From NCBI RefSeq assembly GCF_023343835.1, contig NC_064466.1, positions 372,001 through 436,000 of the forward strand: a stretch of DNA of 64,000 bases, given 5' to 3'. Each line of letters opens with the position of its first letter. Within the stretch, counting starts at the first letter, position 1. The notes beneath the pieces were generated by a model. It was not told where the DNA came from, did not search any database, and saw only the letters and a program-made list of their open reading frames with translations. This DNA comes from Lagopus muta (lineage: Eukaryota > Chordata > Aves > Galliformes > Phasianidae). The position numbers were made by a program, and so were the translations under genes. Below are positions 1 to 57,262 of the stretch, piece by piece.

Positions 1-130
1 GGAGTATTGGGGGTCCCTATGGGGTGGCACATTTGGGGTCCCAAAGGTGGGACAGGTGGGACTCCATAAGTGGAATATTTGGGGGTCCCTATGGGGTGAG
101 ACATTGGGGGTCCTTATGGGACAGCTGGGA
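1..130. repeat. G-rich short tandem repeat at left edge
   Basis: About 35-bp units of the form 'gggggtccctatggggtg' repeat three to four times and run off the left edge. Nothing coding is visible. The stretch 130-300 is a less regular lead-in to the large array that follows. Confidence 0.6.
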
Positions 131-299
131 CCCCAAAAGTGGGGGGGTTGAGGGAATGGATGTTTTTGGGGGCGATGGAACCGCAGCTGGACACCCCAGG
201 TTGAAGGGCACCCAATGAGCCAAGGGAGCCTTGGCTGAACCCCGAACCAACTCGGCTGTGCCGACATGAAGCCAAAGGAGGACGGGTGGCACAGAGTGA

Positions 300-3200: not shown

Positions 3201-6200
3201 TGTGAGGATGGGGGATGTTGCTGAAGAATAGCAGTGGGTCCCAATGTCCCCAAGCAGTTCCAAGGGCCACCAGGAGGGACAACAGACACCAATGATGGAC
3301 ACCCAGGTTTGAAGGTCACCCAGTGGGACAAGAGAACATTTATGGAGCCATGTAACAACGCGAGCGACCCATTGGGGACAGGAGCTTGTGCTGAGGGATT
3401 GCAGTGGGTCCCAATGTCCCCAAGTAGCTCCAAGGGCCACCAGGAGGGACAACGGACACCACTGATGGACACCCAGGGTTGCAGGTCACCCAATGGGCCA
3501 AGAGAACATTTATTGCACCTGAACCAACTCAAGTGTTCCAACATGAAGCCAGACGTGGATGGCAGATGGTGCTGAGTGCCACCAATGGGTCCCAATGTCC
3601 CCAGGAGGGGCTGAGGGCCACCAGGAGGGACAACAGACACCACTGATGGAGAGCCAATGCTGAAGGTCACCCAAGGGGACAGGAGAACATTTATAGAGCC
3701 GTGTAACAACACGAGTGTCCCAACGTGAGGACAGGGGTTGGTGCCGAAGGATTGCAGTGGGTCCCAATGTCCCCAGGAGGGGCTGAGGGCCACCATGAGT
3801 GACAACAGTGATGGACACCCAGGGTTGCAGGTCACCAATGGGACAGGAGAACATTTATAGAGCCACGTAACAACACGAGCGACCCATTGGGGACAGGAGC
3901 TTGTGCTGAGGGATTGCAGTGGGTCCCAATGTCCCCAAGTAGCTCCAAAAGCCACCAGGAGGGACAATGGACGCCACTGATGGACATCCAATGCTGATGG
4001 TCACCCAATGGGCCAAGAGGACATTGATAGAGCCACATAACAACATGAGTGTCCCAGTGTGAGGATGGGGGATGTTGCTGAAGAATAGCAGTGGGTCCCA
4101 ATGTCCCCAAGTAGCTCCAAAAGCCACCAGGAGGGACAACGGACACCAATGATGGACACCCAAGGTTGAATGTCACCCAATGGGCCAAGAGAACATTTAT
4201 TGCACCCGAACCAACTCAAGTGCTCCAACACGAAGCCAGACATGGATGGCAGATGGTGCTGAGTGCCACCAATGGGTCCCAATGTCCCCAGGAGGGGCTG
4301 AGGGCCACCAGGAGGGACAACAGACACCAATGATGGACACCCAGGGTTGCAGGTCACCAATGGGACAGGAGAACATTTATAGAGCCACATAACAACACGA
4401 GTGACCCAGTGGGGACAGGGATTGGTGCTGAGGGATTGCAGTGGGTCCCAATGTCCCCAAGCTGTTCCAAGGGCCACCAGGAGGGACAACGGACACCACT
4501 GATGGACACCCAATGCTGAAGGTCACCCAATGGGCCAAGAGAACATTTATAGAGCCATGTAACAACAGGAGTGACCCAGTGTGAGGATGGGGGATGTTGC
4601 TGAAGAATAGCAGTGGGTCCCAATGTCCCCAAGCAGTTCCAAGGGCCACCAGGAGGGACAACAGACACCAATGATGGACACCCAGGTTTGAAGGTCACCC
4701 AGTGGGACAAGAGAACATTTATGGAGCCATGTAACAACGCGAGCGACCCATTGGGGACAGGAGCTTGTGCTGAGGGATTGCAGTGGGTCCCAATGTCCCC
4801 AAGTAGCTCCAAGGGCCACCAGGAGGGACAACGGACGCCACTGATGGACACCCAGGGTTGCAGGTCACCCAATGGGCCAAGAGAACATTTATTGCACCTG
4901 AACCAACTCCAGTGTTCCAACATGAAGCCAGACGTGGATGGCAGATGGTGCTGAGTGCCACCAATGGGTCCCAATGTCCCCAGGAGGGGCTGAGGGCCAC
5001 CATGAGTGACAACAGACACCACTGATGGACACCCAGGGCTGAAGGTCACTCAATGGACCAAGAGAACATTTATAGAGCCAGGTAACAACAGGAGTGACCC
5101 AGTGGGGACAGGGATTGGTGCCGAAGGATAGCAGTGGGTCCCAATGTCCGCAGGAGGGGCTGAGGGCCACCAGGAGGGACAACAGTGATGGACACCCAGG
5201 GTTGCAGGTCACCAATGGGACAGGAGAACATTTATGGAGCCATGTAACAACATGAGTGTCCCAAGGTGAGGACAGGAGTTGGTGCTGAGGGATTGCAGTG
5301 GGTCCCAATGTCCCCAGGAGGGGCTGAGGGCCACCAGGAGGGAGAACGGACACCACTGATGGACACCCAGGGCTGAAGGTCACCCAGTGGGCCAAGAGAA
5401 CATTTACAGAGCCATGTAACAATGTGAATGTCCCAACTTGAGGACAGGGGTTGGTGCTGAGGGATTGCAGTGGGTCCCAATGTCCCCAAGTAGCTCCAAG
5501 AGCCACCAGGAGGGACAGCGGACAGCCATGATGGAGACCCAGGGGCTGAAGGGCACCCAGTGGGACAGGAGAACATTTATGGAGCCATGTAACAACAGGA
5601 GTGACCCAGTGGGGACAGGGATTGGGTGCCGAAGGATTGCAGTGGGTCCCATGTCCCCAGGAGGGGCTGAGGGCCACCATGAGTGACAACAGACACTTCT
5701 GATGGACACCCAGGGCTGAAGGTCACCCAATGGGCCAAGAGAACATTTATGGAGCCACGTAACAACGCGAGTGACCCAGTGTGAGGATGGGGGATGTTGC
5801 TGAAGAATAGCAGTGGGTCCCAATGTCCCCAAGCTGTTCCAAGAGCCACCAGGAGGGACAACGGACGCCACTGATGGACACCCAGGGTTGCAGGTCACCC
5901 AATGGGACAGGAGAACATTTACTGCACCTGAACCAACTCAAGTGTTCCAACACGAAGCCAGACATGGATGGCAGATGGTGCTGAGGGCCACCTATGGGTC
6001 CCAATGTCCCCAGGAGGGGCTGAGGGCCACCAGGAGGGACAACGGACACCAATGATGGACACCCAGGGCTGAAGGTCACCCAATGGAACAGGAGAACATT
6101 TATAGAGCCACATAAACAACACGAGTGACCCAGTGGGGACAGGGATTGGTGCTGAGGGATTGCAGTGGGTCCCAATGTCCCCCAAGCTGTTCCAAGGGCC

Positions 6201-7863
6201 ACCAGGAGGGACAACGGACACCACTGATGGACACCCAATGCTGAAGGTCACCCAATGGGCCAAGAGAACATTTATAGAGCCATGTAACAACAGGAGTGAC
6301 CCAGTGTGAGGATGGGGGATGTTGCTGAAGAATAGCAGTGGGTCCCAATGTCCCCAAGCAGTTCCAAGGGCCACCAGGAGGGACAACAGACACCAATGAT
6401 GGACACCCAGGTTTGAAGGTCACCCAGTGGGACAAGAGAACATTTATGGAGCCATGTAACAACGCGAGCGACCCATTGGGGACAGGAGCTTGTGCTGAGG
6501 GATTGCAGTGGGTCCCAATGTCCCCAAGTAGCTCCAAGGGCCACCAGGAGGGACAACGGACACCACTGATGGACACCCAGGGTTGCAGGTCACCCAATGG
6601 GCCAAGAGAACATTTATTGCACCTGAACCAACTCAAGTGTTCCAACATGAAGCCAGACGTGGATGGCAGATGGTGCTGAGTGCCACCAATGGGTCCCAAT
6701 GTCCCAGGAGGGGCTGAGGGCCACCAGGAGGGACAACAGACACCACTGATGGAGAGCCAATGCTGAAGGTCACCCAAGGGGACAGGAGAACATTTATAGA
6801 GCCGTGTAACAACACGAGTGTCCCAACGTGAGGACAGGGGTTGGTGCCGAAGGATTGCAGTGGGTCCCAATGTCCCCAGGAGGGGCTGAGGGCCACCATG
6901 AGTGACAACAGTGATGGACACCCAGGGTTGCAGGTCACCAATGGGACAGGAGAACATTTATAGAGCCACGTAACAACACGAGCGACCCATTGGGGACAGG
7001 AGCTTGTGCTGAGGGATTGCAGTGGGTCCCAATGTCCCCAAGTAGCTCCAAAAGCCACCAGGAGGGACAATGGACGCCACTGATGGACATCCAATGCTGA
7101 TGGTCACCCAATGGGCCAAGAGGACATTGATAGAGCCACATAACAACATGAGTGTCCCAGTGTGAGGATGGGGGATGTTGCTGAAGAATAGCAGTGGGTC
7201 CCAATGTCCCCAAGTAGCTCCAAAAGCCACCAGGAGGGACAACGGACACCAATGATGGACACCCAAGGTTGAATGTCACCCAATGGGCCAAGAGAACATT
7301 TATTGCACCCGAACCAACTCAAGTGCTCCAACACGAAGCCAGACATGGATGGCAGATGGTGCTGAGTGCCACCAATGGGTCCCAATGTCCCCAGGAGGGG
7401 CTGAGGGCCACCAGGAGGGACAACAGACACCAATGATGGACACCCAGGGTTGCAGGTCACCAATGGGACAGGAGAACATTTATGGAGCCACGTAACAACA
7501 CGAGTGACCCAGTGGGGACAGGGATTGGTGCTGAGGGATTGCAGTGGGTCCCAATGTCCCCAAGCTGTTCCAAGGGCCACCAGGAGGGACAACGGACACC
7601 AATGATGGACACCCAATGCTGAAGGTCACCCAATGGGGCCAAGAGAACATTTATAGAGCCAGGTAACAACAGGAGTGACCCAGTGTGAGGATGGGGGATG
7701 TTGCTGAAGAATAGCAGTGGGTCCCAATGTCCCCAAGTAGCTCCAAAAGCCACCAGGAGGGACAGTGGTCACCACTGATGGGACACCCAATGCTGATGGT
7801 CACCCTAAGGGCCAAGAGAGCATTTATAGAGCCACGTAACAATGCGAGCGTCGCAAGGTGAGG
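300..7863. repeat. ~172-bp minisatellite array, ~44 units, with higher-order structure
   Basis: The landmark 'gagaacatttat' recurs every 170-176 bp. Each unit also holds 'cagtgggtcccaatgtcccc' and 'ccaccaggagggaca'. Neighbouring units differ at many sites, but blocks repeat almost exactly at larger offsets. About 1.25-4.35 kb matches 4.35-7.47 kb at an offset near 3,102 bp (18 units), and about 3.0-4.3 kb also matches 4.38-5.0 kb at an offset of 1,379 bp (8 units). This indicates recent segmental copying within an older array. The array abuts the TRAPPC5 stop codon, so TRAPPC5 transcripts probably end inside it. The many 60-450 codon open frames here arise from the repeat and are not genes. 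Confidence 0.93.
7823..7828 (-). promoter_or_regulatory. TRAPPC5: Possible variant poly(A) signal for TRAPPC5
   Basis: TATAAA on the minus strand lies about 67 nt past the TRAPPC5 stop codon, in the first unit of the 172-bp array. No AATAAA is seen nearer. The same motif recurs in most array units, so the true cleavage site cannot be fixed from sequence. Confidence 0.3.
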
Positions 7864-7894
7864 ACGGGGGACACCCCCCATCTCCAGGCCCCCC

Positions 7895-12620: not shown

Positions 12621-12748
12621 CGCATTCCCCCCCCCCCCCCCGCACGGCGCATCTCCTGCCCCATCTCCCCGTGGGTTCAGCGCCCCCCTCCCATTCCCCC
12701 CCCCCCAAAAACGGACGCAGCTGAGCCGCTCTCTGGCTCTGCTCGCAT

Positions 12749-12754
12749 TTTATT
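12749..12754 (-). promoter_or_regulatory. Poly(A) signal of the type II lectin gene
   Basis: AATAAA on the minus strand, 166 nt past the lectin stop codon. It fits the end of this gene and no other gene in the window. Confidence 0.7.
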
Positions 12755-12919
12755 CCCCCCGCTGACCCCGACTTTCGCTCGCCGCTTCCCCCCATAGCGG
12801 ACGCACACGGGTCGGATCCTCACCCCGCAGCTCCGCGCTTCGCACGGCGCCCAGCGGAGGCGAATGGCGGGAGGCTTTTCGTGGTTCCCCTCCGCTGCCC
12901 CCCCCGAAACCCGGCGTCG

Positions 12920-15900
12920 TCACGGCCGCCCCTCGCACGCCCAGGGCCGCCCCTCGCACACCCAGGGCAGCGCGCTGTCGCACGGCCACTCGAAGCGCGT
13001 CCCGTCCGGCCGCAGCGCCGCGCACTTCTGCTGCCGCCCCCCGTCCGCTTCGTTCGGGTGCCGCCGGCTGCGACGGAAGCGCGGTGGGTTTTGGGGAGGA
13101 TTGAGGAGTGGGGGGGGGGGTTTAGGGGTGGAGATGGGGGTCTCTCCCCCCCCCTTCTCTCGTCTCCTCATCCCCGGCCCCCCCCCTCGTACCCCCCCCC
13201 CCCCCCCCCGTACCCCTGGGTCCGGGTCACGACGGAGCCGTTCGCTCGTTTCCAGGTGCGCTCCAGCTCTTCGTCTCTGATTCCGAGCCACGAGGAGCCG
13301 AGCAGCGCGCTTTGGAGGTGAGCCTGGGGGGCGGCGGCGGTCGATGGGACGCTGAGACCCCCCCCCCCCTCCCCCAATCCGACCCCCCTCCCGGGACCCC
13401 CAGGACCCCCAAGGACGCCGGGTCCCACCGCCGGCTGGGTCCCGGTGCTGTGATGCCCCCAAAGCTGCCGGCTCTGCCCCGACGTGGGGCGACTTGGGGG
13501 GGAAATGTGGGGTCTTTTTTTTGGCTGGGGGGAGGTTGAGGGGGGGGGGGACGGCGGGATTTGGGGTTACGGCGGGATGAAGGGTTGGGGGGAGTCGGGT
13601 TGGTGGTCGGGGGGAGCAGGATTGGGGTGAGAGGCGGCAGGGTTAGGGATGATGGCAGGATTGGAATTAGAGCAGGATTAGGATTGGGGGTCATGGCAGG
13701 ATTGGGGTGGGAGGCAGCACAATTTGGGATTACATCAGGATTAGGATTGGGGGCTGCAGGATTGGGGTGGGGGATGGCAGGATTAGGGTTGTGGGCAGCA
13801 GGGTTAGGGACTGTAATAGGATTGGGGTGGGAGGCGGCAGGATTGGGGGTTATGGCAGCATTGGGGCTGTGGCAGGATTGGGATTAGAGCAGGATTAGGA
13901 TTGGGGGTGGCAGGATTGGGGTGGAGGTAGCAGGATTAGGGATTGTAGTAGGATTGAGGTGGGAGGCTGCAGGATTAGAGATTATGGAAGGATTGGGGGC
14001 TATGGCAGGATTAGGATTACAGCAGGATTAGGATTGGGGGGCAGCAGGATTGGGGTTTATGGCAGGATTGAGATTGGGGATGGCAGGATTGGGATTAGAG
14101 CAGGATTAGGGGTTGTGGTACGATTAGGATTTAGGGATGGCAGGATTGGGGTGGGAATGGGATTCTGGTCATGGATCGGGGTTGGGTGCAGATGGGATTA
14201 TGGTTATGGATTAGGATTAAGTGTAGGATGGGGATTGGGTTATGGTGATGGATTAGGATTGGAGGTAGGATGGGATGGGGCTGTGGCCATGGATTGGGGT
14301 TGGTGTGGATGGGATTCTGGTTATGGATTGGGTTGGGTGTAGGATGGGGTTGTGGCCATGGATTGGGGTAGGGTGTAGGATGGGGGCAGGATCCTGGCCA
14401 TGGATTGGGGTTGGAGGTAGGATGGGATTCTGGCCATGCATTGGGGTTGGTGTGAATGGGATTCTGGTTATGGATTGGGGTTGGGTATAGGATGGGGTTG
14501 GGGTCATGGATTGGGGTGGGGTGTAGGATGGAAATAGGATTCTGGTCATGGATTGGGGTTGGTGTGGATGGGATTCTGGTTATGGATTGGGGTTGAGTGT
14601 AGGATGGAAATAGGATTCTGGTCATGCATTGGGTTGGGGGTAGGATGGGATTCTGGCCATAGATTGGGGTGGGTGTAGGATGGCGTTGTGGCTGTGCATT
14701 GGGGTTGGTGTGAATGGGATTCTGGCCATGGATTGGGTTGGGTGTAGGATGGGGATGGGGTTGTGGTCATGGGATGGGATTGAGTGTAGGATGGAAATAG
14801 GATTCTGGTCATGGATTGGGGTTGGGTGTAGGATAAGATTCTGGCCATGGATTGGGGTTGGAGGTAGGATGGGATGGGGCTGTGGTCATGGATTGGGGTT
14901 GGGTGTGGATGGAAATAGGATTGTGGTCATGGATTAGGGTTGGATGTAGCATGGGATTGTGGTCATGTGATAGGGTTGAGTGTAGGATGGGGACGGGGTT
15001 GTGGCCATGGATTAGGGTGGGGTGGATGGGTTTCTGGTCATGGATTAGGATTGGAGGTAGGATGGGATGGGGTCATGGATTGGGGTTGGTGTGGATGGTG
15101 TTGTGGCCATGGATTAGGGTTGGGTGTAGGATGGGAATGAGATTCTGGCCATGGATTGGGGTTGGAGGTAGGATGGGGATGGGGTTGTGGTCATGGATTG
15201 GGGTTGGGTGTGGATGGAAATAGGATTCTGGTCATGGAATAGGATTGGAGATGGGATGGGGATGGGATTCTGGTCATGGATTGGGATTGGTGTGAATGGG
15301 ATTCCGGTCATGGATTGGAGTTGGGTGCAGATGGGATTATGGTTATGGATTAGGGTTGGGTGTAGGATGGGGATCAGATTATGGCCAGGGATTAGGATTG
15401 GAGATAGGATGGGATGGGGCTGTGGCCATGGATTGGGGTTGGGTGTAGGATGGGATTGTGGTTATGGATTAGGATTGAGTGTAGGATGGGGGTTGGGTTA
15501 TGGTGATGGATTAGGGTGGGGTGTGGGATGGAAATAGGATTCTGGTCATGGAATAGGATTGAAGATAGGATGGGAATGGGATTCTGGCCGTGGATTGGGG
15601 TTGGGTGTAGGATGGGATTGTGGTCATGCGATAGGGTTGAGTGTAGGATGGGGATTGGGGTTGTGGTGATGGATTGGGGTTGGGTATAGGATGGGTTGTG
15701 GTCATGGGATGGGATTGAATGTAGGATGGAAATAGGATTCTGGCCATGGGTTGGGGTTGGGTGTAGGATCTGAATGGGATTGTGGCCATGGATTGGGGTT
15801 GGAGGTAGGATGGAAATAGGATTCTTTCCATGGATTAGGGTTGGGTGTAGGATGGGGATGGGATTGTGGCCATGGATTGGGGTTGGATGTAGGATGGGGA

Positions 15901-17573
15901 TGGGGTTGTGGTCATGGATTGGGGTTGAGTGTAGGATGGAAATAGGATTCTGGCCATGGAATAGGATTGGGTGTAGGATGGGGATGGGATTCTGGCTGTG
16001 GATTGGGGTTGGTGTGAATGGGATTCTGGTTGTGGATTGGGGTTGAGTGTAGGATGGAAATAGGATTCTGGCCATGGGTTGGGGTTGGGTGTAGGATCTG
16101 GAGGGGGTTGTGGTCATGGATTGGGGTTGGGTATAGGATGGGGTTGTGGCCATGGGATAGGATTGAGTGTAGGATGGAAATAGGATTCTGGTCATGGATT
16201 GGGGTTGGAGATAGGATGGGGATGGGATCCTGGCCATGGATTGGGATTGGTGTGAATGGGATTGTGGTCATGGATTGGAGTTGGGTGTAGGAGGGAAATA
16301 GGATTCTGGTCATGGATTGGGGTTGGTGTGGATGGGATTCTGATTAGGGATTAGGGTTGGGTGTAGGATGGGAATGAGATTCTGGCCATGGATTTGGATT
16401 GGAGGTAGGATGGGGATGGGGTTGTGGTCATGGATTGGGGTGGGGTGTGGATGGAAATAGGATTCTGGTCATGGATTGGGGTTGGAGATAGGATGGGGAT
16501 GGGATTCTGGCCGTGGATTGGGGTTGGGTGTAGGATGGGATTGTGGTCATGCGATAGGGTTGAGTGTAGGATGGGGATGGGGTTGTGGCCATGGATTGGG
16601 GTTGAGTGTAGGATGGGTTGTGGTCATGGGATGGGATTGAATGTAGGATGGAAATAGGATTCTGGGCATGGATTGGGGTTGGAGGTAAAATGGGGGTGGG
16701 GTTGTGGCCATGGATTAGGATTGGAGGTAGGATGGGATTCTGGCCATAGATTGGGGTTGAGTGTAGGATGGAAATAGGATTCTGGCCATGGATTAGGACT
16801 GGGGGTAGGATGGGGATGGGATTCTGGTCATGGATTGGGGTTGGAGGTAAAATGGGGTTATGGTGATGGATTGGGGTTGGGTGTAGGATCTGGATGGGAT
16901 TGTGGCCATGGATTGGGGTTGGGTATGGGATGGAAATAGGATTCTGGCCATGGATTGGGGTTGGTGTGAATGGGATTCTGGCCATGGATTGGGGTTGGAG
17001 GTAAAATGGGGGTGGGGTTGTGGCCATGGATTAGGATTGGAGGTAGGATGGGGTTATGATGATGGATTGGGTGGGGTGTAGGATGGAAGTAGGATTGTAG
17101 CCATGGATTGGGGTTGGGTGTAGGATGGAAATAGGATTCTGGTCATGGATTAGGCTTGGAGATAGGATGGGGATGGGATTCTGGCCGTGGATTGGGGTTG
17201 GTGTGAATGGGATTCTGGTTATGGATTGGGTTGGGTATAGGATGGGGTTATGATGATGGATTGGGGTTGGGTATAGGATGGAAATAGGATTCTGGCCATG
17301 GATTAGGGTTGGAGGTAGGATGGGGTTGTGGCCATGGATTGGGGTTGGGTGTAGAATGGGGGCAGGATCCTGGTGGTGGATGAGGGTGGGGGTCGGCTGT
17401 AGGATGAGGGTCTGGGTTTGGGGTCACCTTCTCCTCGTCGCCGTCCACCTCCAGCAGCTCTGCCCCATGCGCTGAGCAGAAGCCCCACGCGCCGTCCCAC
17501 GTCTCGGTTGTGCTGGAGTAGAAATAACAGGACCCCCCAAAATACGTCCAACCCTGGGGGCAAACGGGGCAAC
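12920..17573 (-). CDS. C-type lectin domain exons (exons 6-8) of the type II lectin
   Basis: Exon 6 (17,428-17,573) opens the fold with CPQGWTYFGGSCYFYS. Exon 7 (13,214-13,323) holds 'GSSWLGIRDEE'. Exon 8 (12,920-13,067) holds the closing 'CAAL...FEWPCDSALPWVCE' and the stop. The cysteine spacing is that of a long-form C-type domain. Calcium and sugar contacts look degraded: the usual EPN or QPD is HPN, and the WND triplet before the penultimate cysteine is absent (FEW-P-C). Calcium-dependent sugar binding is therefore doubtful. The last 14 residues contain a 21-bp tandem duplication (PWVCEGR then PWACEGR), which adds an extra cysteine. Intron 7 is only 146 nt, whereas introns 5 and 6 are expanded by arrays. 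Confidence 0.88.
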
Positions 17574-20500
17574 CTGGGCAGGGGACACAAACCCCAAACG
17601 GGGCTGTGAGACCCCATTCCGTCCGCTTTGGGGTCTGGGTTTAACCTGGAAGAATTCAGGGTTCTACACAACCGTGGCCCCATGGGGGGTTTGGGTTCAG
17701 CCCCAGTCCTGTGGATGTGGGGCTACGATGGGGGCAGGGTTGGGATTTGGGGTGGAATTGGGGTCAGCTGGAGCCCCCTGTGTTTAGGGTTGGGTGAAGG
17801 TCAGAGCCCTGCTGGGGTTGGGTTGGGGTTTGGGATCAGGGCTGGGTTGGATTTGGGATCAGGGCTGGGTTGGGATTTGGGATCAGGGCTGGGTTGGGAT
17901 TTGGGATCAGGGCTGGGTTGGGATTGGGATCAGGGCTGGATTGGGTTTGGGATCAGGGCTGGATTTGGGATCAGAGCTGGGTTGGATTTGGGATCAGGGC
18001 TGGGTTGGATTTGGGATCAGGGCTGGGTTGGATTTGGGATCAGAGCTGGGTTGGGATCAGGGCTGGGTTGGATTTGGGATCAGGGCTGGGTTGGATTTGG
18101 GATCAGGGCTGGGTTGGGATTTGGGATCAGGGCTGGGTTGGGATTTGGGATCAGGGCTGGGTTGGGATTGGGATCAGGGCTGGATTGGGTTTGGGATCAG
18201 GGCTGGATTTGGGATCAGAGCTGGGTTGGATTTGGGATCAGGGCTGGGTTGGATTTGGGATCAGGGCTGGGTTGGATTTGGGATCAGGGCTGGGTTGGAT
18301 TTGGGATCAGGGCTGGGTTGGGATTTGGGATCAGAGCTGGGTTGGATTTGGGATCAGGGCTGGGTTGGGGTTTGGGATCAGGGCTGGGTTGGGATTTGGG
18401 ATCAGGGCTGGGTTGGGATTTAGGATCAGGGCTGGATTGGGATTTGGGATCAGGGCTGGGTTGGGATTTGGGATCAGAGCTGGGTTGGATTTGGGATCAG
18501 GGCTGGGTTGGGATTTGGGATCAGGGCTGGGTTGGGTTTGGGATCAGGGCTGGGTTGGGATTTAGGATCAGGGCTGGGTTGGATTTGGGATCAGGGCTGG
18601 GTTGGGATTTGGGATCAGGGCTGGGTTGGATTTGGGATCAGGGCTGGGTTGGATTTGGGATCAGGGCTGGGTTGGGATTTGGGATCAGGGCTGGGTTGGG
18701 GTTTGGGATCAGGGCTGGGTTGGATTTGGGATCAGGGCTGGGTTGGGATCAGGGCTGGGTTGGGATTTGGGATCAGGGCTGGGTTGGATTTGGGATCAGG
18801 GCTGGGTTGGGGTTTGGGATCAGGGCTGGGTTGGATTTGGGATCAGGGCTGGGTTGGATTTGGGATCAGAGCTGGGTTGGGATCAGGGCTGGGTTGGATT
18901 TGGGATCAGGGCTGGGTTGGATTTGGGATCAGGGCTGGGTTGGATTTGGGATCAGGGCTGGATTGGGATTTAGGATCAGGGCTGGGTTGGGATTTGGGAT
19001 CAGGGCTGGGTTGGGATTTAGGATCAGGGCTGGGTTGGATTTGGGATCAGGGCTGGGTTGGATTTGGGATCAGGGCTGGGTTGGGTTTGGGATCAGGGCT
19101 GGGTTGGGTTTGGGATCAGGGCTGGGTTGGATTTGGGATCAGGGCTGGGTTGGATTTGGGATCAGGGCTGGGTTGGATTTGGGATCAGGGCTGGGTTGGG
19201 TTTGGGATCAGGGCTGGGTTGGGTTTGGGATCAGGGCTGGGTTGGATTTGGGATCAGGGCTGGGTTGGGTTTGGGATCAGGGCTGGGTGGGATTTGGGAT
19301 CAGGGCTGGGTTGGAATTGGGATCAGGGCTGGGTTGGGGTTTGGGATCAGGGCTGGGTGGGATTTGGGATCAGGGCTGGGTTGGATTTGGGATCAGGGCT
19401 GGGTTGGAATTGGGATCAGGGCTGGGTTGGGATTTGGGATCAGGGCTGGGTTGGGATTTAGGATCAGGGCTGGGTTGGGTTTGGGATCAGGGCTGGGTTG
19501 GGATTTAGGATCAGGGCTGGGTTGGGATTGGGATCAGGGCTGGGTTGGGATTGGGATCAGGGCTGGATTTGGGATCAGAGCTGGGTTGGATTTAGGATCA
19601 GGGCTGGGTTGGGATTTGGGATGAGGGCTGGATTGGGATTTGGGATCAGAGCTGGGTTGGATTTGGGATCAGGGCTGGGTTGGGGTTTGGGATCAGGGCT
19701 GGGTTGGGATTTGGGATCAGGGCTGGGTTGGATTTGGGATCAGGGCTGGATTGGGATTTGGGATCAGGGCTGGGTTGGGATTTGGGATCAGGGCTGGGTT
19801 GGATTTGGGATCAGGGCTGGGTTGGGATTTGGGATCAGGGCTGGGTTGGGATTTAGGATCAGGGCTGGGTTGGGGTTTGGGATCAGGGCTGGGTTGGGAT
19901 TTAGGATCAGGGCTGGGTTGGATTTGGGATCAGGGCTGGGTTGGGATTTGGGATCAGGGCTGGGTTGGATTTGGGATCAGGGCTGGGTTGGATTTGGGAT
20001 CAGGGCTGGGTTGGGATTTGGGATCAGGGCTGGGTTGGGGTTTGGGATCAGGGCTGGGTTGGATTTGGGATCAGGGCTGGGTTGGGATCAGGGCTGGGTT
20101 GGGATTTGGGATCAGGGCTGGGTTGGATTTGGGATCAGGGCTGGGTTGGGGTTTGGGATCAGGGCTGGGTTGGATTTGGGATCAGGGCTGGGTTGGATTT
20201 GGGATCAGAGCTGGGTTGGGATCAGGGCTGGGTTGGATTTGGGATCAGGGCTGGGTTGGATTTGGGATCAGGGCTGGGTTGGATTTGGGATCAGGGCTGG
20301 ATTGGGATTTAGGATCAGGGCTGGGTTGGGATTTGGGATCAGGGCTGGGTTGGGATTTAGGATCAGGGCTGGGTTGGATTTGGGATCAGGGCTGGGTTGG
20401 ATTTGGGATCAGGGCTGGGTTGGGTTTGGGATCAGGGCTGGGTTGGGTTTGGGATCAGGGCTGGGTTGGATTTGGGATCAGGGCTGGGTTGGATTTGGGA

Positions 20501-23500
20501 TCAGGGCTGGGTTGGATTTGGGATCAGGGCTGGGTTGGATTTGGGATCAGGGCTGGGTTGGGTTTGGGATCAGGGCTGGGTGGGATTTGGGATCAGGGCT
20601 GGGTTGGAATTGGGATCAGGGCTGGGTTGGGGTTTGGGATCAGGGCTGGGTGGGATTTGGGATCAGGGCTGGGTTGGATTTGGGATCAGGGCTGGGTTGG
20701 AATTGGGATCAGGGCTGGGTTGGGATTTGGGATCAGGGCTGGGTTGGGATTTAGGATCAGGGCTGGGTTGGGTTTGGGATCAGGGCTGGGTTGGGATTGG
20801 GATCAGGGCTGGGTTGGGATTGGGATCAGGGCTGGATTTGGGATCAGAGCTGGGTTGGATTTAGGATCAGGGCTGGGTTGGGATTTGGGATGAGGGCTGG
20901 ATTGGGATTAGTGGGGTTTGGGCTGGGTTGGGGTTGGTTTAAGCGCTGTGTATGTAGGGTATATTTGGGGCTGGGCTGGGTTTAGGTTCGATTTGGGTTT
21001 AGGTTCAATCCTGTGTTTTTAGGATCCCAGCTGCAGGAAGGGTTCAGACCCCACAGCAGCCCAGGTGGAGCTGAAGCTGCGTCTGTGTAAGGTTAGGGCT
21101 GAGTTTGGGGTTGGATTAAATCATGTAGGGTCAGGGCAGGGTCAGGATGTGGGGCTGAGTTTGGAGCAAATTGGGGTTGGAGCGAGTTTGGGGTTGAGCT
21201 GTGTTTGGAGTCAGACTGAGTTTGGGGCAGTTTGGGGCCAGGCTGCCTTTGGGGTCAGACTGGATTTGAGGCAGATTGGGGTCAGGCTGCATTTGGGGTT
21301 GGGCTGAGTTTGGGGTCAGATTGGATTTGGGGCAGTTTGGGGTCAGCGTAAGTTTGGGGTCGTGCTGAGTTTGGGGCCAGGCTGAGTTTGGGGTCAAACT
21401 GGATTTGGGGCAGTTTGGGGTCAGGCTGGATTTGGGGCAGTTCAGGTTTGAACTGAGTTTGGGGCCAGGCTGAGTTTGGAGCAGTTTGGGTTCAGGCTGG
21501 GTTTAGGGTCATGCTGAGTTTGGGGTCCAACTGGATTTGGGGCTGTTTGGGGTCAGGCTGAGTTTGGGGCAGTTCGGATTTGAACTGAGTTTGGGTTCAG
21601 GCTGAGTTTGGAGCAATTTGGGGTCAGGCTGAGTTTGGGGTCAGGCTGGATTTGGGGCTGTTTGAGTTTGAACTGAGTTTGGGGTCCAACTGGATTTGGG
21701 GCTGTTTGGGGTTAGGCTGAGTTTGGGGCAGTTCGGATTTGAACTGAGTTTGGGTTCAGGCTGAGCTTGGGGTCAGGCTGGATTTGGGGCAGTTCGGATT
21801 TGAACTGAGTTTGGGTTCAGGCTGAGTTTGGAGCAATTTGGGGTCAGGCTGAGTTTGGGGTCAGGCTGGATTTGGGGCTGTTTGAGTTTGAACTGAGTTT
21901 GGGGTCAGGCTGAGTTTGGGGCAGTTTGGGGTCAGGTTGAATTTGGGGTCAGGCTGGATTTGGGGCAGTTTGGGGTCAGGCTGCGTTTAGGGTCAGGCTG
22001 GATTTGGTGCAGTTCAGGTTTGAACTGAGTTTGGGGTCAGGCTGAGTTTGGAGCAGTTTAGGGTCAGGCTGAGCTTAGGATCAGGCTGCGTTTGGCGTCA
22101 GGCTGAATTTGGGATCCAACTGGATTTGGGGCAGTTCAAGTTTGAACTGAGTTTGGGGTCAGGCTGCATTTGGGGCAGCTTGGGGTCAGGCCGGATTTGG
22201 GGCTGTTTGGGGTCAGGCTGAGTTTGGAGCAGTTTAGGGTCAGTCTGAGCTTAGGGTCAGGCTGAGTTTGGGGTCAGGCTGGATTTGGGGCAGTTCAGGT
22301 TTGAACTGAGTTTGGGGTCAGGCTGAGTTTGGGGTCAGGCTGGATTTGGGGCTGTTTGAGTTTGAACTGAGTTTGGGGCCAGGCTGAGTTTGGAGCAGTT
22401 TGGGTTCAGGCTGAGGTTTAGGGTCATGCTGAGTTTGGCGTCCAACTGGATTTGGGGCAGTTTGGGGTTAGGCTGCGTTTAGGGTCAGGCTGGATTTGGG
22501 GCAGTTTAGGTTTGAACTGAGTTTGGGTTCGGGCTGAGTTTGGGGCAGTTTGGAGCAATTTGGGTTCAGGCTGAGTTTGTGGCCAGGCTGCTGCCTCTTT
22601 GGGCTGCAGCAGCCCCCAGACCCCCAGCAGACCCCCATCACCCCCCACTGGGCACTGACAGGAGCGCGCGCACAGCTCCTCGCCGCTCCCGTGCGCGACC
22701 CATCGGCTCCACTCGCGGTCCCCCACGTAGAGCATCACCGTCTGCCTCGCGTTGTTGCCGTAGTTGAAGTAGAGCCGCTGCCCGGCCAGAGCCAGCAGCC
22801 CCCCTCCTCCGCACTCCCACCGCTGCAACCTTCCGTCCTCCCTGCAGGGCTGCAGCATCACGACGGATAAATTCTGCCCCGCCGCCGCCGTGACGCACAG
22901 CCGCCTCTCCGCGTTCCAGAGCCGCATCCCCGGCAGCCACTGGAAGCGTTGGGCCGCCGATTCGGGAAGGCACGGAGAGGCGGTCAGCTGCCGCCCGCGG
23001 GCTTCCACGCACATGTCGTGAGCTCTGTTGTACAGCAGGAAGGAGCGGGACGCTGCGGGAACGGAGGTTGGGGTTTTGGGGTGCGGGGACGGGGCTGCGG
23101 TTGGGGATGGGGGCTGGAGGGGGGGGGGAACGCGGCGCGCACCCATGCCGGGGTTGGGCTGCAGCTTCTCCGCGTCCTGCAGGGCTGCGGTCAGCGCTGC
23201 GACTGGGGGAGAGAAGGGGAATCCTGAAAGTGTAGGGCATCAAGGGGGCGGGGAGGAAGGGGGGGGGAGACGGACGGCCCAGCTCCGCCCCCGGCAGACC
23301 CAGCATCGTCTCCTAAAGTTGGGGAGACCCCACGGAGACCCCGGTACCCAAATTCTGTCCCCATATCATCCCCAAGGGTTGGAGAGCCCCCACAGAGCCC
23401 CCCAGCACTGAACTCTGCCCCAACAGCCCCTAAAACACGAGGGGAGTCCCCGTGGAGACCCCCAGGACCCCAATTCTGCCCCCGGCAGCCCCAGCATCAC

Positions 23501-25409
23501 ATCCTAAAGTGGGGAAGACCCCCATGGAGCCCCCCAGCACTGAACTCTGCCCCAACAGCCCCAGCATCATCCTCAAAAGTGAGGGAGACCCCCGTGGAGC
23601 CTCCCCTCCCCCCCCAGGACCCCAACTCTGTCCCCAGCAGCATCCCTTGAAGTGGGGGAGCCCCTATAGAACCCCCCCCCTCAAAAAAAACCCTCAACTC
23701 AGCCCCAACCTCATTTCCCAAGGGTGGGGTCCCCATGGAGACCCCCCAGGACCCCAACTCTGCCCCCAGCAGCCCCAGCATCATCCCCAAAAGTGGGGAA
23801 GACCCCCGTGGAGCCCCCCAGCACCTGAACTCTGCCCCCAGCAGCATCCTCTAAAGTGGGGGAGCCCCTGTGGAGACCCCTCCCCCAAAAAAACACTTCA
23901 GCTCAGCCCCAACCTCATTTCCCAAGGGTGGGGTCCCCATGGAGACCCCCAGGACCTCAACTCTGCCCCCAGCAGCCCCAGGATTGGTGTCAACATCCCC
24001 CAAAGTGAGAGAACCCCTATGGAGACCCCCGGAGCCCCAACTCTGCCCCAACATCACCTCCCGATGTTGGGGAGCCCCCAAGGAGCCCCCCCAGCACCTT
24101 CCCTCTGCCCCACGTCATTCCCCAAGGTTGGGGACCCCTCCGTTGAGCCCCGCAGACCCCATACTCACTCCGCCTCGTCCCGAGGGAGAGGAGGAAGACG
24201 TTGAGCAGCACCGAGAGCCCCAGGGCCACAGCCCCCACCAGCAGCAGCCTGTCCTGGGGGCAGCCCTGCCTCACTGGGGACACTGGGGGGAGGAGGTGAC
24301 AACGGGTCGCTATGGGGCGGCAGGACCCCGATTTGGGCTGCGTTGCCTCGTCCCTATGGGTCGCTCACGCCGTACCTGGGGGGTCAGGTGAGTGCTTCCG
24401 GCTCGGAGCAGTGATGGGGGGGTCCAAAGGTTCGTAGGGGTTCTCCTCCATGGGGTGCAGGTCGCTGCAGGCTGTGGAGGGGACAGCGCTCATGGGGGAA
24501 CCCCCCCTGTGCCCCACCTCCAAATGGAGGGACTCACCCTGAGCACCGAAATGAGGGGTTCCCCCCAGTGTCACCGTGCTGGGGACCCCCCCCTTGGGCA
24601 CTGGAGATGGGGGATCTGCCCCAGGAGAGGGCACTGGGGGGTGGAAATGGGGGCAGGGGGCCACCACCAAGCCTGGGGGTCCCTCATCACCTTAATGAGA
24701 GGTCCCCCCTGGTGTCACCATGCTGGGACCCCCCCCCTTGAGCACTGGAGATGGGGGATCTGCCCCAGGGGTGGGCGCTGGGGGGTGGAAATGGAAATCA
24801 TCCCCTAAAACAGGGGAGACCCCCATGGAGACCCCCAGGAGCCCAACTCTGCCCCCAGCAGCCCCAGCATCATCCCCAAAAGTGGGGGAGACCCCTATGG
24901 AGCCCCCCCCCCCCAGGACCCCAATTCTGCCCACAGCAGCATCCCCTGAAATGGGGGAGCCCCTATGGAGACCCTCCCCAAAAAAAACCCTCAACTCAGC
25001 CCCAACCTCATTTCCCTTTGGTGCCCTTTGATGCCACCATCAAGCCTGGGGGTCCCTCATCACCTTAATGAGAGGTCCCCCCCTGGTGTCACTGTGCTGG
25101 GACCCCCCCCTTGGGCACTGGAGATGGGGGATCTGCCCCAAGGGTGGGCACTGGGGGGTGGAAATGGGGGCAGGGGTCCCTTTGGTGCCACCAGCCCTGG
25201 GGATCTCTTTTGGGGATGAGGAGCCCCCCCTTGGTGCCACAGCTCATCCTAGGCACTCCCCCCCCTCCCCACCTCAGATCACCTCTGGTTGTCACCACGC
25301 ACCTCAGTGACCCCCCCCCCCCATCACCACCCCCCACCCCCCACCTACCCTTGTCCCCACAGGGTCCTCCTGTCCCCCACTCCTGCCCGGACTCGATGTT
25401 GCCGTACAT
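12920..25409 (-). CDS. Type II membrane lectin: R-type (CysR) domain joined to a C-type lectin domain, 8 coding exons, 375 aa
   Basis: Coding exons on the minus strand, 5' to 3': 25,349-25,409; 24,376-24,471; 24,169-24,282; 23,143-23,202; 22,660-23,052; 17,428-17,573; 13,214-13,323; 12,920-13,067 (stop). They total 1,128 nt, and every junction has GT-AG borders and a matching phase. Predicted order: cytosolic tail 1-64, transmembrane helix ~65-87, short stalk to ~111, mannose-receptor-type cysteine-rich domain ~112-241, C-type lectin domain ~242-375. In human the place next to TRAPPC5 is taken by FCER2, CLEC4G and CD209, all type II C-type lectins, so this is probably a relative of that cluster. 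None of those has a CysR domain. It is presumably an endocytic or signalling receptor at the cell surface. I do not recognise a named orthologue, so I leave the symbol empty. Confidence 0.85.
13550..17395. repeat. Lectin intron 6 minisatellites
   Basis: About 13,550-14,150 repeats ~30-bp words around 'ggcaggattggggt'. From 14,150 to 17,395 the unit is ~55 bp, with 'catggattggggttgg', 'gtgtaggatgg' and 'ggattctgg'. It fills the intron between the first two C-type domain exons almost to the splice sites. No exon-like sequence is seen inside. Confidence 0.92.
17816..20915. repeat. 24-25-bp minisatellite with 1,339-bp higher-order duplication, lectin intron 5
   Basis: About 125 units of 'ttgggatcagggctgggttgg'. 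A block at about 18,602-19,060 reappears at 19,941-20,400 with essentially the same order of unit variants (offset 1,339 bp). Because many units are 24 bp and lack stops, plus-strand open frames of up to 626 codons result. They have no other coding signal. Confidence 0.95.
21065..22575. repeat. ~24-bp minisatellite (ggggtcaggctgagtttgg), lectin intron 5
   Basis: Units alternate 'ggggtcaggctgagttt', 'ggatttggggcagtt' and 'tttgaactgagttt'. It ends right before the CysR exon, and its first 170 bp match the dispersed segment at 12.0 kb. Confidence 0.9.
22660..23052 (-). CDS. Cysteine-rich (ricin-B/R-type) domain exon of the type II lectin
   Basis: One 393-nt exon encodes the whole domain: SRSFLLYNRAHDMCVEA, then 'RLCVT', 'LQRWECGGGG', 'LYFNYGNNARQTVMLY' and 'EWSRWVAHGSGEELC'. 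Order and spacing follow the N-terminal CysR domain of MRC1-family receptors (FxxYN...CV, RLC, WEC, FNYGN, WSRW, final LC). That domain in MRC1 binds sulphated GalNAc using a tryptophan in the WSRW segment, which is kept here. In MRC1, PLA2R1, LY75 and MRC2 the domain is at the extracellular N terminus of a type I protein; here it follows a type II anchor. Donor TCCT|gtcagt leaves phase 1, which exon 6 of the C-type domain completes. Confidence 0.9.
23143..24282 (-). CDS. Transmembrane (exon 3) and stalk (exon 4) exons of the type II lectin
   Basis: Exon 3 (24,169-24,282) encodes a hydrophobic run LLLVGAVALGLSVLLNVFLL flanked by CPQDR and GTRR: a single-pass anchor with no signal peptide, hence type II. 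Exon 4 (23,143-23,202) encodes the 20-residue stalk (AALTAALQDAEKLQPNPGM), amphipathic and much shorter than the coiled-coil necks of FCER2 or CD209. Phase 1 at both borders matches the neighbouring exons. Confidence 0.83.
23290..24150. repeat. C-rich imperfect repeats in lectin intron 3
   Basis: Units of roughly 65-140 bp containing 'ccccatggagacccccagga' and 'aactctgcccccagcagc'. Related units continue in intron 1 (24.48-25.25 kb), so the same repeat family has spread across two introns around the tail exon. Confidence 0.75.
24376..25409 (-). CDS. Cytosolic tail exons (exons 1-2) of the type II lectin
   Basis: Exon 1 (25,349-25,409) starts with ATG and reads MYGNIESGQEW, donor AAGG|gtaggt. 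Exon 2 (24,376-24,471) adds CSDLHPMEENPYEPLDPP and ends in phase 1 before the membrane exon. Two tyrosines lie in YxxPhi form, YGNI near the N terminus and YEPL in the middle. Such motifs bind AP-2 for endocytosis, and YxxL with upstream acid residues can also act as a half-ITAM. The alternative start at the Met of HPMEEN would drop exon 1; I prefer the exon-1 ATG because its phase fits exactly. Confidence 0.7.
24480..25330. repeat. C/G-rich imperfect repeats in lectin intron 1
   Basis: Two to three copies of a ~300-400 bp block with 'gggcactggagatgggggat', 'tgggggtggaaatgggggca' and 'ggtgtcacc'. The blocks share words with the intron 3 repeats. No exon with splice sites is recognised inside. 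Confidence 0.7.
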
Positions 25410-25990
25410 CGTCCTCTTGTCACCAATGAACCGTCCTTGTGTCTGTCCTGGTTGATAAGAGCAGAGAAAAAGGGGGGGGGGGGGGGGGGGGGGGACACGA
25501 CAGGATGTGGGGGGGGCCTCAAAAGGGGCCCCTCAGCACCCACAGCTCCGTCCCTGCGCCCCAGGGCTGGGCTGGAGGTGATGCCAACAGTGACGGGTGC
25601 CGGAGGCTGCACCCATGGGTGCGGGAGATGTGGGGAGAGGAAGGACTGGGGGACACCCCGATGGCACCCAGGGTGACCCCGTGGCGGTGCCTGTCGTGCC
25701 CCCCATGCTCGAGCTGTCCCCACATCTGCTGTGTCCCCATTGTCCCCATGGCCAGGGAGCATCCACTGCCATCCCCATGGTGTCCCCACGGTGTCCCCAT
25801 GCCAACACCCGCGATGTCCCCGTGCCCAACACATCCCTGCTGTGCACCCATCCCAGCACCCAGGGTGACAAAAGGGGCCCTCAGGGGGGGCGAGGGGGGG
25901 GGGGACAGGACAGGGGCACCCTGCTGGGCTCTGCAGGAAGAGCTGGGTGCTATCGGCATCCGCCAGCCTCAGCCACAGCGCCCGGCTGTG
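25410..25990. other. Mostly non-repetitive 5' flank of the lectin gene
   Basis: Contains a long poly-G run (about 25,471-25,494) and then ~500 bp of C-rich, weakly repetitive sequence with 'tgtccccat' words. It probably holds the lectin promoter or 5' UTR, but I see no clear TATA box or initiator. The minus-strand open frame across it has no recognisable domain. Confidence 0.4.
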
Positions 25991-26945
25991 GGGGCACCGC
26001 TGTGGGGGTGTGGGGTGACGATGGGTGCCCTGTGGGGTGACGATGGGGCCCTGTGGGGTGACGATGGGGCCCTGTGGGGTGATGATGGGGCCCTGGGGGT
26101 GATGATGGGTGCCCTGGGGGGTGACGATGGGCGTCCTGTGGGGTGATGATGGGCACCCAGTGGGGTGATGATGGGGCCCTATGGGGTGATGATGGGGCCC
26201 TGTGGGGTGACAATGGGGCCCTGGGGGGTGACGATGGGTGCCCTGTGGGGTGACAATGGGGCCCTGTGGGGTGACGATGGGTGCCCTGTGGGGTGATGAT
26301 GGGCGGCCTGTGGGGTGACGATGGGCACCCTGGGGGGTGATGATGGGCGCCCTGGGGGGTGACATTGGGTGCCCTGGGGGGTGATGATGGGCACCCAGTG
26401 GGGTGACAGTGGGGCCCTATGGGGTGACGATGGGCGCTCTGGGGGGTGATGATGGGTGCCCTGTGGGGTGATGATGGGCGCCCTGTGGAGTGAGGATGGG
26501 CGCCCTGTGGGGTGACAATGGGCGCCCTGGGGGGGGGTGACGATGGGCACCCAGTGGGGTGACAATGAGCGCCCTGTGGGGTGATGATGGGTGGCCTGTG
26601 GGGTGATGATGGGGCCCTGGGGGGTGACAATGGGTGCCCTGGGGGGTGATGATGGGCGCCCTGTGGGGTGACGATGGGCGCCCTGTGGGGTGACAATGGG
26701 CGCCCTGGGGGGGTGACGATGGGGCCCTGTGGGGTGACAATGGGGCACCGTGTGGGGTGACAATGGGCACCCTGGGGGGTGACGATGGGCACCCAGTGGG
26801 GTGACGATGGGTGCCCTGTGGGGTGACAATGGGTGCCCTGTGGGGTGATGATGGGCACTCTGTGGGGTGATGATGGGGCCCTGGGGGTGACAATGGGTGC
26901 CCTGGGGGGTGACAATGGGCGCCCTGGGGGGTGACGGGCATCCCG
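25990..26945. repeat. 22-23-bp minisatellite (gccctgtggggtgacgatgg)
   Basis: About 42 units between the lectin and PNPLA6 genes. Variation is limited to a few positions (gatgatgg/gacgatgg/gacaatgg). His/Pro-rich minus-strand open frames of 320-420 codons are repeat products. Confidence 0.93.
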
Positions 26946-26959
26946 TGGCTGCACCACGT

Positions 26960-29650
26960 CCCACAGCGTTGCCAGTTGTCCCCTGGCTGTGGTGGCAGTC
27001 CCAAGATGGTGCTGGCTGTCCCACAGTGGCACCAGGTGTCCCATGGTGGTGGCAGCTGTCCCATGGCCATGCTGGATGTCCCATGGCGGTGGTGGCTCTC
27101 CCAGAGTGGTGACAACTGTTCCCAGGTGATGGTGGCAGTCCCATAGTGGTGACAGCTGTCCCAAGGTGGTGGCTGCCCTATAGTGGTACCAGGTGTCCCA
27201 TGGTGGTGGTGGTGGCTGTCCCATAGTGGTGACATCTGTCCCATAGTGGTGGTGACTGTCTCACAGTGGTGCCAGGTGTCCCATGGCACTGGTGCCAATC
27301 CCAAGGTGGTGACAGCTGTCCCAAGATGGTGGTGGCTGTCCCATAGTGGTGACATCTGTCCCAAGATGGAGAGGCTGTCCCACAGGGGTGCCTGGTGTCC
27401 CAAGGTGGTGGCAGCTGTTCCATATTGGTGACATCTGTCCCATGGTGGTGACTGTCCCACAGTGGCACCAGGTGTCCCATGGTGGTGGTGGCAGTCCCAA
27501 GATGGTGGTGGCTGTTCCATAGTGGTGACATCTGTCCCATGGTGGTGACATCAGTCCCAAGACAGTGGTGGCTGTCCCATAGTGGCACTAGATGTCCCAT
27601 GGCACTGGTGGCAGTCCCATGGTGGTGGCAGCTGTCCCAAGACAGTGGTGGCTGTCCCACAGTGGCACTAGATGCACTGGTGACAGTCCCAAGGTGGTGA
27701 CAGCTGTTCCATATTGGTGACATCAGTCCCAAGATGGTGCTGGCTGTCCCACAGTGGCACCAGGTGTCCTATGGCACTGGTGCCAATCCCATAGTGGTGA
27801 CAGCTGTCCCCAGATGATGGTGGCAGTCCCAAGATGGTGACAGCTGTCTCACAGTGGTACCAGGTGTCCCAGGGCACTGGTGCCAATCCTATAGTGGTGA
27901 CAGCTGTCCTAAGACAGTGGTGGCAGTCCCAAGATGGTGGTGGCTGTCCCACAGTGGTGACATCTGTCCCAAGATGGAGAGGCTGTCCCACAGGGGTGCC
28001 TGGTGTCCCAAGGTGGTGGCAGCTGTTCCATATTGGTGACATCTGTCCCAAGGTGGTGCTGGCTGTCCCATAGTGGTGCCAGGTGTCCCATGGCACTGGT
28101 GCCAATCCCATAGTGGTGACAGCTGTCCCATGGTGGTGACATCAGTCCCAAGACAGTGGTGGCTGTCCCATAGTGGCACTAGATGTCCCATGGCACCGGT
28201 GGCAGTCCCAAGGTGGTGACATCTGTCCCATAGTGGTGCTGGCTGTCCCACAGTGGCACCAGGTGTCCTATGGCACTGGTGCCAATCCCATGGTGGTGAC
28301 AGCTGTTCCCAGATGATGGTGGCAGTCCCAAGATGGTGACAGCTGTCCCATAGGGGTGACATCAGTCCCAAGACAGTGGTGGCTGTCCCACAGTGGCACC
28401 AGCTGTCCCATGGCACTGGTGACAGTCCCAAGATGGTGCTGGCTGTCCCATGGTGATGCCAGGTGTCCCATGGTGGTGGCAGCAGTTCCAAGGTGGTGAC
28501 ATCAGTCCCAAGATGTTGCTGGCTGTCCCATGGTAGTGACATTTGTCCCATAGTGGTGACATCTGTCCCATGGTGGTGACATCAGTCCCAAGATGGTGCT
28601 GGCTGTCCCACAGTGGTACCAGATGTCCCATGGCACTGGTGGCAGTCCCATGGTGGTGGTGGCTGTTCCATATTGGTGACATCTGTCCCAAGGTGGTGAC
28701 TGTCCCACAGTGGCACCAGATGTCCCATGGCACTGGTGACAGTCCCAAGGTGCTGATGACTGTCCCACAGTGGTGCCAGGTGTCCCAGGGCACTGGTGCC
28801 AATCCCATGGTGGTGACATCTGTCCCAAGACAGTGGTGGCTGTCCCACAGTGGCACCAGCTGTCCCATGGTGGTGGTGGCTGTCCCAAGGTGGTGGCAGC
28901 TGTTCTATAGTGGTGACAGCTGTCCCAAGACATTGGTGGCAGTCCCAAGATGGTGACAGCTGTCCCAAGATGGAGAGGCTGTCCCACAGGGGTGCCTGGT
29001 GTCCCAAGATGGTGACAGCTGTCCCATATTGGTGACACTTGTCCCAAGATGGTGCTGGCTGTCCCACAGTGGCACCAGGTGTCCCATGGTGGTGGCAGCT
29101 GTCCCAGGTGATGGTGGCAGTCCCTAGGTGGTGACATTTGTCCCATGGTGGTGGTGGCTGTCCCACAGTGGGACCAGCTGTCCCATGGTGGTGGTGACAG
29201 CTGTTCCATAGTGGTGACATTTGTCCCAGGATGGTGGTGGCTGTCCCACAGGGGTACCAGGTGTCCCAAGGTGGTGGCAGCTGTTCCATATTGGTGACAT
29301 CTGTCCCAAGGTGGTGGTGACTGTCCCATAGTGGTACCAGGTGTCCCATGGTGGTGGCAGCAGTTCCAAGGTGGTGACAGCTGTCCCATAGTGGTGACAT
29401 CTGTCCCAAGATGGTGCTGGCTGTCCCATGGTGATGCCAGGTGTCCCATGGCACTGGTGCCAATCCCATAGTGGTGACATCTGTCCCATGGTGGTGACAT
29501 CAGTCCCAAGACAGTGGTGGCTGTCCCACAGTGGTGACATTTGTCCCATAGAGGTGACATCAGTCCCATGGTGGTGACATCAGTCCCAAGATGTTGCTGG
29601 CTGTCCCGCAGTGGCACCCGGTGTCCCATGGCTCTGGTGGCAGTCCCACA
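26960..29650. repeat. ~30-bp minisatellite (tgtcccatagtggtgacagc)
   Basis: About 90 units of 27-33 bp, 'ctgtcccaaggtggtg' with variants, and larger blocks that recur (for example the 'agatggagaggctgtcccac' block at about 27.36, 27.97 and 28.97 kb). It ends shortly before PNPLA6. Confidence 0.92.

Positions 29651-30222: not shown

Positions 30223-57262
<27,040 letters not shown>

Follow-up and report, generated by a model that had tools for sequence, protein, structure and literature searches.

Does a single gene beside TRAPPC5 join a mannose receptor-type CysR (R-type) domain to a C-type lectin domain in one type II membrane protein? The CysR domain is mainly known from large type I endocytic receptors, which it caps at the N terminus, and an excerpt of PMC4229073 gives the MRC1 family layout as type I, with a CysR, an FNII domain and eight C-type domains encoded by 30 exons. 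We addressed the question in a window (the whole stretch of DNA analysed, 64,000 nucleotides, C41:372001-436000) and drew the genomic comparators from its own 1.03-Gb genome of 165 contigs.

We rebuilt the gene from the DNA and found eight minus-strand exons between 25,409 and 12,920, with GT-AG borders at all seven introns (Table 1). The spliced frame of 1,128 nt encodes 375 amino acids plus a stop codon without any internal stop, and exons 1 to 7 exit in phases 1, 1, 1, 1, 1, 0 and 2. The eight exons, GT-AG borders and matching phases claimed in a sequence-only reading of this DNA were thus all reproduced, and the junctions that it proposed at 24,169/23,202, 23,143/23,052 and 22,660/17,573 were exact to the base. 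Its further claim, that the CysR exon leaves in phase 1 and is completed by a distant C-type exon, was confirmed across the 5,086 bases of intron 5. A 21-base tandem repeat at 12,924-12,968 doubles the end of the coding frame and encodes the terminal CEGRPWACEGRP, including a C-terminal cysteine that presumably pairs with the extra N-terminal cysteine, as in CD209-type domains.

Table 1. Exons and associated signals of the gene, in window positions
Feature	Position	Strand	Description
Exon 1	25349..25409	(-)	Start codon; beginning of the cytoplasmic tail, with YGNI (residues 2-5); exits in phase 1; donor AGG/GTAGGT (slash marks the exon border)
Exon 2	24376..24471	(-)	Cytoplasmic tail, containing EENPYEPL with its YxxL at residue 33; phase 1-1
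Exon 3	24169..24282	(-)	114 nt; predicted membrane helix, residues 66-86; phase 1-1
Exon 4	23143..23202	(-)	Short stalk (20 residues); phase 1-1; weak donor TGG/GTGCGC
Exon 5	22660..23052	(-)	Encodes the entire CysR (R-type) domain; phase 1-1; its donor is the weakest of the seven
Alternative phase-1 donor of exon 5 (last base before it)	22642	(-)	GGG/GTGATG
Intron 5	17574..22659	(-)	5,086 bases, 90% minisatellite
Exon 6	17428..17573	(-)	146 nt; first third of C-type domain; phase 1-0; extra CD209-type N-terminal cysteine
Exon 7	13214..13323	(-)	110 nt; middle of C-type domain; phase 0-2
Exon 8	12920..13067	(-)	148 nt; end of C-type domain and stop codon; without EPN or WND
AATAAA	12749..12754	(-)	166 nt past the stop codon

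GC content at codon positions 1, 2 and 3 of the spliced frame was 0.65, 0.55 and 0.87, and the third position was the GC-richest in every one of the eight exons (0.89 in exon 5). The accuracy of individual bases calls for some caution in this region, since TRAPPC5, at ~8,460-7,895 (-), gave TRAPP family matches in two adjoining frames, with the change near 8,191, implying a frame change in the assembly or the allele. That such single-base faults occur next door, and that the C-type domain has lost its calcium motifs (see below), could be taken to mean that the gene is a decaying pseudogene, but all eight exons are open, their borders are intact and their composition is codon-like, and we regard decay as highly improbable.

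Pfam recognized both lectin-type domains in the 375-amino-acid protein, Lectin_C at 5.8e-12 and CysR_MRC2_N (PF24562) at 1.4e-10, each above its gathering cut-off, together with a Ricin_B_lectin match below its own cut-off (25.7 of 29 bits). Compared with solved structures in the PDB, the CysR exon matched the mannose receptor CysR at 1.2e-26, followed by Endo180 at ~9e-7, and its six canonical cysteines are present. This exon was also detected alone, both by Pfam in the window frames and by a genome-wide profile search. An AlphaFold model of it, again alone, had a pLDDT of 43.7 and was not carried into a fold search. Taken singly, exons 6, 7 and 8 went undetected by Lectin_C in the window frames (E up to 0.1) and were not among the 126 places of a genome-wide Lectin_C search; the domain scores only when they are joined. 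The frame over exon 6 gave a sub-threshold match to UL45. The six-frame Pfam search covered the window outside 1-7,800, 26,101-29,500, 30,501-33,400, 40,401-45,400 and 48,601-51,200 and the plus strand of 12,801-22,500, stretches that are mostly minisatellite.

The best membrane-helix window of the protein falls in exon 3. Nearer the N terminus, sampling every five residues found no hydrophobic 19-residue window, unlike what a signal peptide would give, and no FNII match was found in the protein or in the minus-strand frames of 12,701-26,100. From these features, we predict a type II layout consisting of a cytoplasmic tail, an internal helix, a stalk, the CysR and a C-terminal C-type domain.

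A search of the whole genome for the CysR family yielded nine matches, namely, four on C10, two on C11, one each on C28 and C1, and the exon described here on C41. From scores, order and layout, we read the C28 locus as MRC2 and the C11 loci as LY75/PLA2R, and by the same features we gave the name MRC1L-A to the C10 gene that lies at the highest coordinate. The four MRC1-like CysR exons of C10 form an array consistent with the bird MRC1L array, which, in an excerpt of PMC4229073, comprises five genes, one of them without a CysR. All four are phase 1-1, as is exon 5. In a tree of 11 CysR sequences, the CysR of the C41 gene grouped with the six MRC1 and MRC1L CysRs (support 87/95) in a group that was unresolved inside, and its place there is unsure because its branch, at 2.0 changes per column, was flagged as long by the tree tool and the support lies below the tool's 95 mark.

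The length of this branch makes an older origin possible. The protein would be the same, and the chimeric gene discussed below would stand, but the layout would date from the amniote ancestor or earlier and would have been lost elsewhere, rather than being the bird or reptile invention that had been proposed. The CysR is only 37% identical to that of MRC1L-A, which is itself 74% identical to that of human MRC1, as an early date would predict; however, genes on GC-rich microchromosomes evolve fast, and such evolution also gives a long branch. In mammals, MCEMP1, a small type II protein, is encoded between RETN and TRAPPC5. It could, as a small type II protein at this interval, be a remnant of an old layout, and a figure legend in PMC4467842 includes it in the neighborhood of RETN and TRAPPC5. 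All in all, we think an early date possible but rather unlikely.

The C1 match (C1:35365236-35365571 (-), 42 bits, above the family cut-off) is a ninth CysR-like exon lying outside the C10, C11 and C28 loci. We considered it as a second chimera and rejected it, as the 10 kb downstream on the same strand gave no Pfam match; our guess is that its host gene is PTPRB. The C1 locus is an unusual home for this domain, and it had been claimed that vertebrate CysR domains belong to the MRC1 family; CysR-like exons may exist beyond that family. A genome search with the whole protein, in which the best 36 candidates were scored, gave 24 matches. Every one of the eight exons appeared a single time, on C41, and the remaining matches were the CysR exons of the C10 array, four in number, and C-type exons, some of C41 and some of other loci. 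Neither a retrocopy nor a second copy of the gene was among them. First C-type exons resembling that of this gene were seen at C161:274951-275091, C59:10000276, C1:113785, C1:118005 and C40:667562.

For the C-type domain, we compared solved structures and then exon plans. By summed chain score, the C-type part matched the phospholipase A2 receptor at 1.7e-18 and the yolk sac IgY receptor at 2.8e-18, and the best single-domain chain was CD209-like protein B at 1e-15, whose alignment (61 bits) beats any single domain of the other three chains shown. A second type II lectin gene, gene A, lies outside the window at C41:294,155-281,778, 91 kb away. Our model of gene A has nine exons, i.e., one for the tail, a 114-nt membrane exon, four stalk exons and three C-type exons of 152, 110 and 133 nt (phases 1-0, 0-2 and 2), with the inner exons ahead of the C-type domain all 1-1. 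The two genes thus have in common the 114-nt 1-1 membrane exon, the 110-nt 0-2 middle C-type exon and the phase series of the C-type exons, and their first C-type exons are ~37% alike; gene A was the one neighbor with which the type II exon plan was compared in full. The gene differs from gene A, which has four stalk exons and intact EPN and WND motifs, in having a single stalk exon followed by the CysR and in having lost both motifs. The best single-domain relatives of gene A were CLEC4E, FCER2 and CD209, with multidomain chains of the mannose receptor family higher by summed score, and gene A is a candidate for an avian DC-SIGN/CD23-like receptor. An excerpt of a 2020 review (PMC7403975) states that no chicken DC-SIGN orthologue has been identified yet. 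Farther along C41, gene B was recognized from a membrane-helix segment and a first C-type exon (~275.5 and 270.8 kb), the latter ~51% like that of gene A. Both gene A and gene B (282-294 and 271-276 kb) lie on the far side of TRAPPC5 from the gene under study.

The C-type domains of MRC1L-A are split elsewhere. In four of its eight domains, inspected by eye, the splitting introns are offset downstream by ~5, 9, 8 and 22 codons and have phases 1, 1, 2 and 0, and it is by these intron positions, rather than by a C-type tree, that we judged the relationship. Furthermore, the extra N- and C-terminal cysteine pair of the C-type domain recurs in the alignments with both CD209-like protein B and gene A. 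By exon phases and intron positions, therefore, the gene follows the type II plan in its membrane anchor and C-type end, and the MRC1 plan in its CysR exon. As in CD209, FCER2 and CLEC4G, there is a short tail, an internal anchor, a stalk and one C-terminal C-type domain on a phase-1 plan, with the C-type domain in three exons (1-0, 0-2 and 2-stop), the extra cysteine pair and a location near TRAPPC5, but in contrast to those genes a whole CysR stands between the stalk and the C-type domain and EPN/QPD and WND are missing. MRC1 and the avian MRC1L genes, with whose CysRs it groups, share the 1-1 phase of the CysR exon and four of five residues of the sulphated-sugar pocket (described below), whereas they are type I proteins of a family with 8 or 10 C-type domains; the protein studied here is type II by prediction, with one C-type domain whose introns are at other places, no FNII match, a CysR that is not N-terminal and no signal peptide-like start. 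Taken together, these results support the claim made for this locus, a single type II gene in which a CysR of the MRC1 kind is combined with one C-type domain, and they add that the C-type domain follows the CD209/FCER2 exon plan. We consider it probable that one chimeric gene encodes a 375-residue type II receptor of this composition.

The alternative that two genes are present, a type II CysR protein ending within intron 5 and a separate C-type gene, has to be weighed against the content of that intron. Its length (5.1 kb) and the continuation of the CysR reading frame beyond the exon 5 donor (ORF 22,424-23,239) would suit two genes, but the minus strand of this largely minisatellite intron yielded neither a Pfam domain nor a membrane-helix segment, AATAAA and ATTAAA are likewise missing from it, which counts for little because the stretch is C-rich, and the C-type exons begin in phase 1 with no anchor or start of their own in sight. 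From 30,000 down to 7,305, the minus strand has no ATTAAA and just one AATAAA, the one behind exon 8. Separate genes therefore seem very improbable to us, and we continue with the single chimeric gene.

Whether the product always contains the CysR depends on how exon 5 is spliced. Scored with frequency tables, the exon 5 donor is the weakest of the gene at -0.89 and stands at the 81st percentile of local GTs, against the 85th to 99.6th percentiles for the other six donors; the exon 4 donor is weak as well (-0.15). The exon 5 acceptor is strong (98.8th percentile), and an alternative phase-1 donor 18 nt downstream, at 22,642, scores -0.09 and would add six residues. Weak donors are perhaps not unusual here, as two in the gene A model score -1.19 and -1.28. 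Because exon 5 is symmetric (1-1), its skipping would keep the frame, and partial inclusion is possible. The more radical alternative is that exon 5 is absent or rare in the product, with exons 1 to 4 joined to exons 6 to 8 and the CysR exon left as a cassette or relic. The in-frame skip and the weak donor would permit this, but its frame is open throughout, with six cysteines and four of five pocket residues retained and third positions GC-rich (0.89), and few local sites surpass its acceptor, all of which makes its general absence unlikely.

We then looked at the residues expected to contact ligands. According to an excerpt of a 2024 DEC205 paper (PMC10914487), N118, N121, Y130, L135 and W136 form the pocket in which the mannose receptor binds 4-SO4-GalNAc, and an excerpt of an Endo180 paper (PMC4635314) has the sugar stacking on this CysR tryptophan. 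By alignment, the corresponding residues of the chimeric CysR are N, N, Y, E and W, i.e., four of the five are kept and L is replaced by E; at 37% identity, the chance of such a match is ~0.07, as estimated by hand. All five are found in human MRC1, mouse MRC1 and MRC1L-A, and the other seven genomic CysRs have 0 or 1 of them. The position changed from L to E is one of two described as hydrogen bonding the sulphate in PMC10914487. With a sulphate-contact residue changed, binding of a sulphated glycan by the chimeric CysR is plausible only, and we would put it a little short of an even chance.

In sugar-binding C-type domains, EPN or QPD and WND are the motifs for calcium and sugar. The C-type domain of the chimeric gene has EAD or HPN (depending on the alignment) and RFE in their place. 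Their replacement makes the usual sugar binding by this domain unlikely, and the acidic residues that are left mean that weak calcium binding may still occur. Of the "two-lectin receptor" that had been proposed, the two domains themselves are borne out by Pfam, but two working lectins are doubtful, as the C-type domain is without EPN/QPD and WND. The tail carries two YxxI/L motifs, YGNI and EENPYEPL, of which the second may be endocytic or hemITAM-like.

How might such a gene have arisen and what might it do? Exon shuffling, which had been suggested for this locus, fits the exon phases, the CysR exon being 1-1 as in MRC1L and the rest being as in gene A. Probably, a phase 1-1 CysR exon was copied from an MRC1-type gene into a type II lectin gene belonging to the FCER2/CD209 cluster, where it entered a phase-1 intron that separated the stalk from the C-type exons, and, as the exon is symmetric, a single insertion would have given a working frame. 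The CysR would then be the main sugar binder, recognizing sulphated GalNAc- or galactose-type glycans without calcium by analogy with the mannose receptor, and the C-type domain, its usual calcium/sugar motif lost, may have turned to protein binding, oligomerization or a structural role. The YEPL that follows acidic residues in the tail could serve endocytosis and perhaps hemITAM-type signaling, judging from a short motif, and if exon 5 were skipped, the gene would also make a short type II C-type receptor of the ordinary kind. This whole scheme, an exon-shuffling chimera across two immune lectin families in which sugar binding has shifted to the imported CysR and exon 5 is an optional cassette giving two receptors, we put forward tentatively, as possible but less likely than not.

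Carried as one symmetric exon in a compact type II receptor, the CysR would show exon shuffling among immune receptors in readable form and would offer a small natural construct for studies of sulphated-glycan recognition in birds. It would also alter what to seek in the chicken lectin repertoire. A word search of the open-access literature, mostly titles and the starts of abstracts, found no description of a type II CysR plus single C-type layout among the matches listed. An excerpt of PMC7349971, citing Larsen 2019, describes chicken CLEC17AL-A and -B as group II C-type receptors and suggests a receptor absent from mammals; either of them may correspond to gene A, gene B or the chimeric gene.

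Pfam searches of translated frames placed the chimeric gene among neighbors on the same strand, with MCOLN1 at ~61-64 kb, PNPLA6 at ~37-56 kb and TRAPPC5 at ~8.5-7.9 kb, giving the order MCOLN1-PNPLA6-[chimeric gene]-TRAPPC5. Opposite PNPLA6, at ~52,329-52,535 (+), the Pcf11 RFEG repeat family gave a match below its cut-off (5.3e-8), probably as an effect of repeat composition. An Rfam scan of the window gave no match. AATAAA occurs 16 times on the two strands of the window, against 7.3 expected. Minisatellite arrays fill introns and spacers at 337-7,871, 14,152-17,381, 17,815-20,932, 40,264-45,507, 48,544-51,206 and other places, and make up ~90% of introns 5 and 6 of the chimeric gene.
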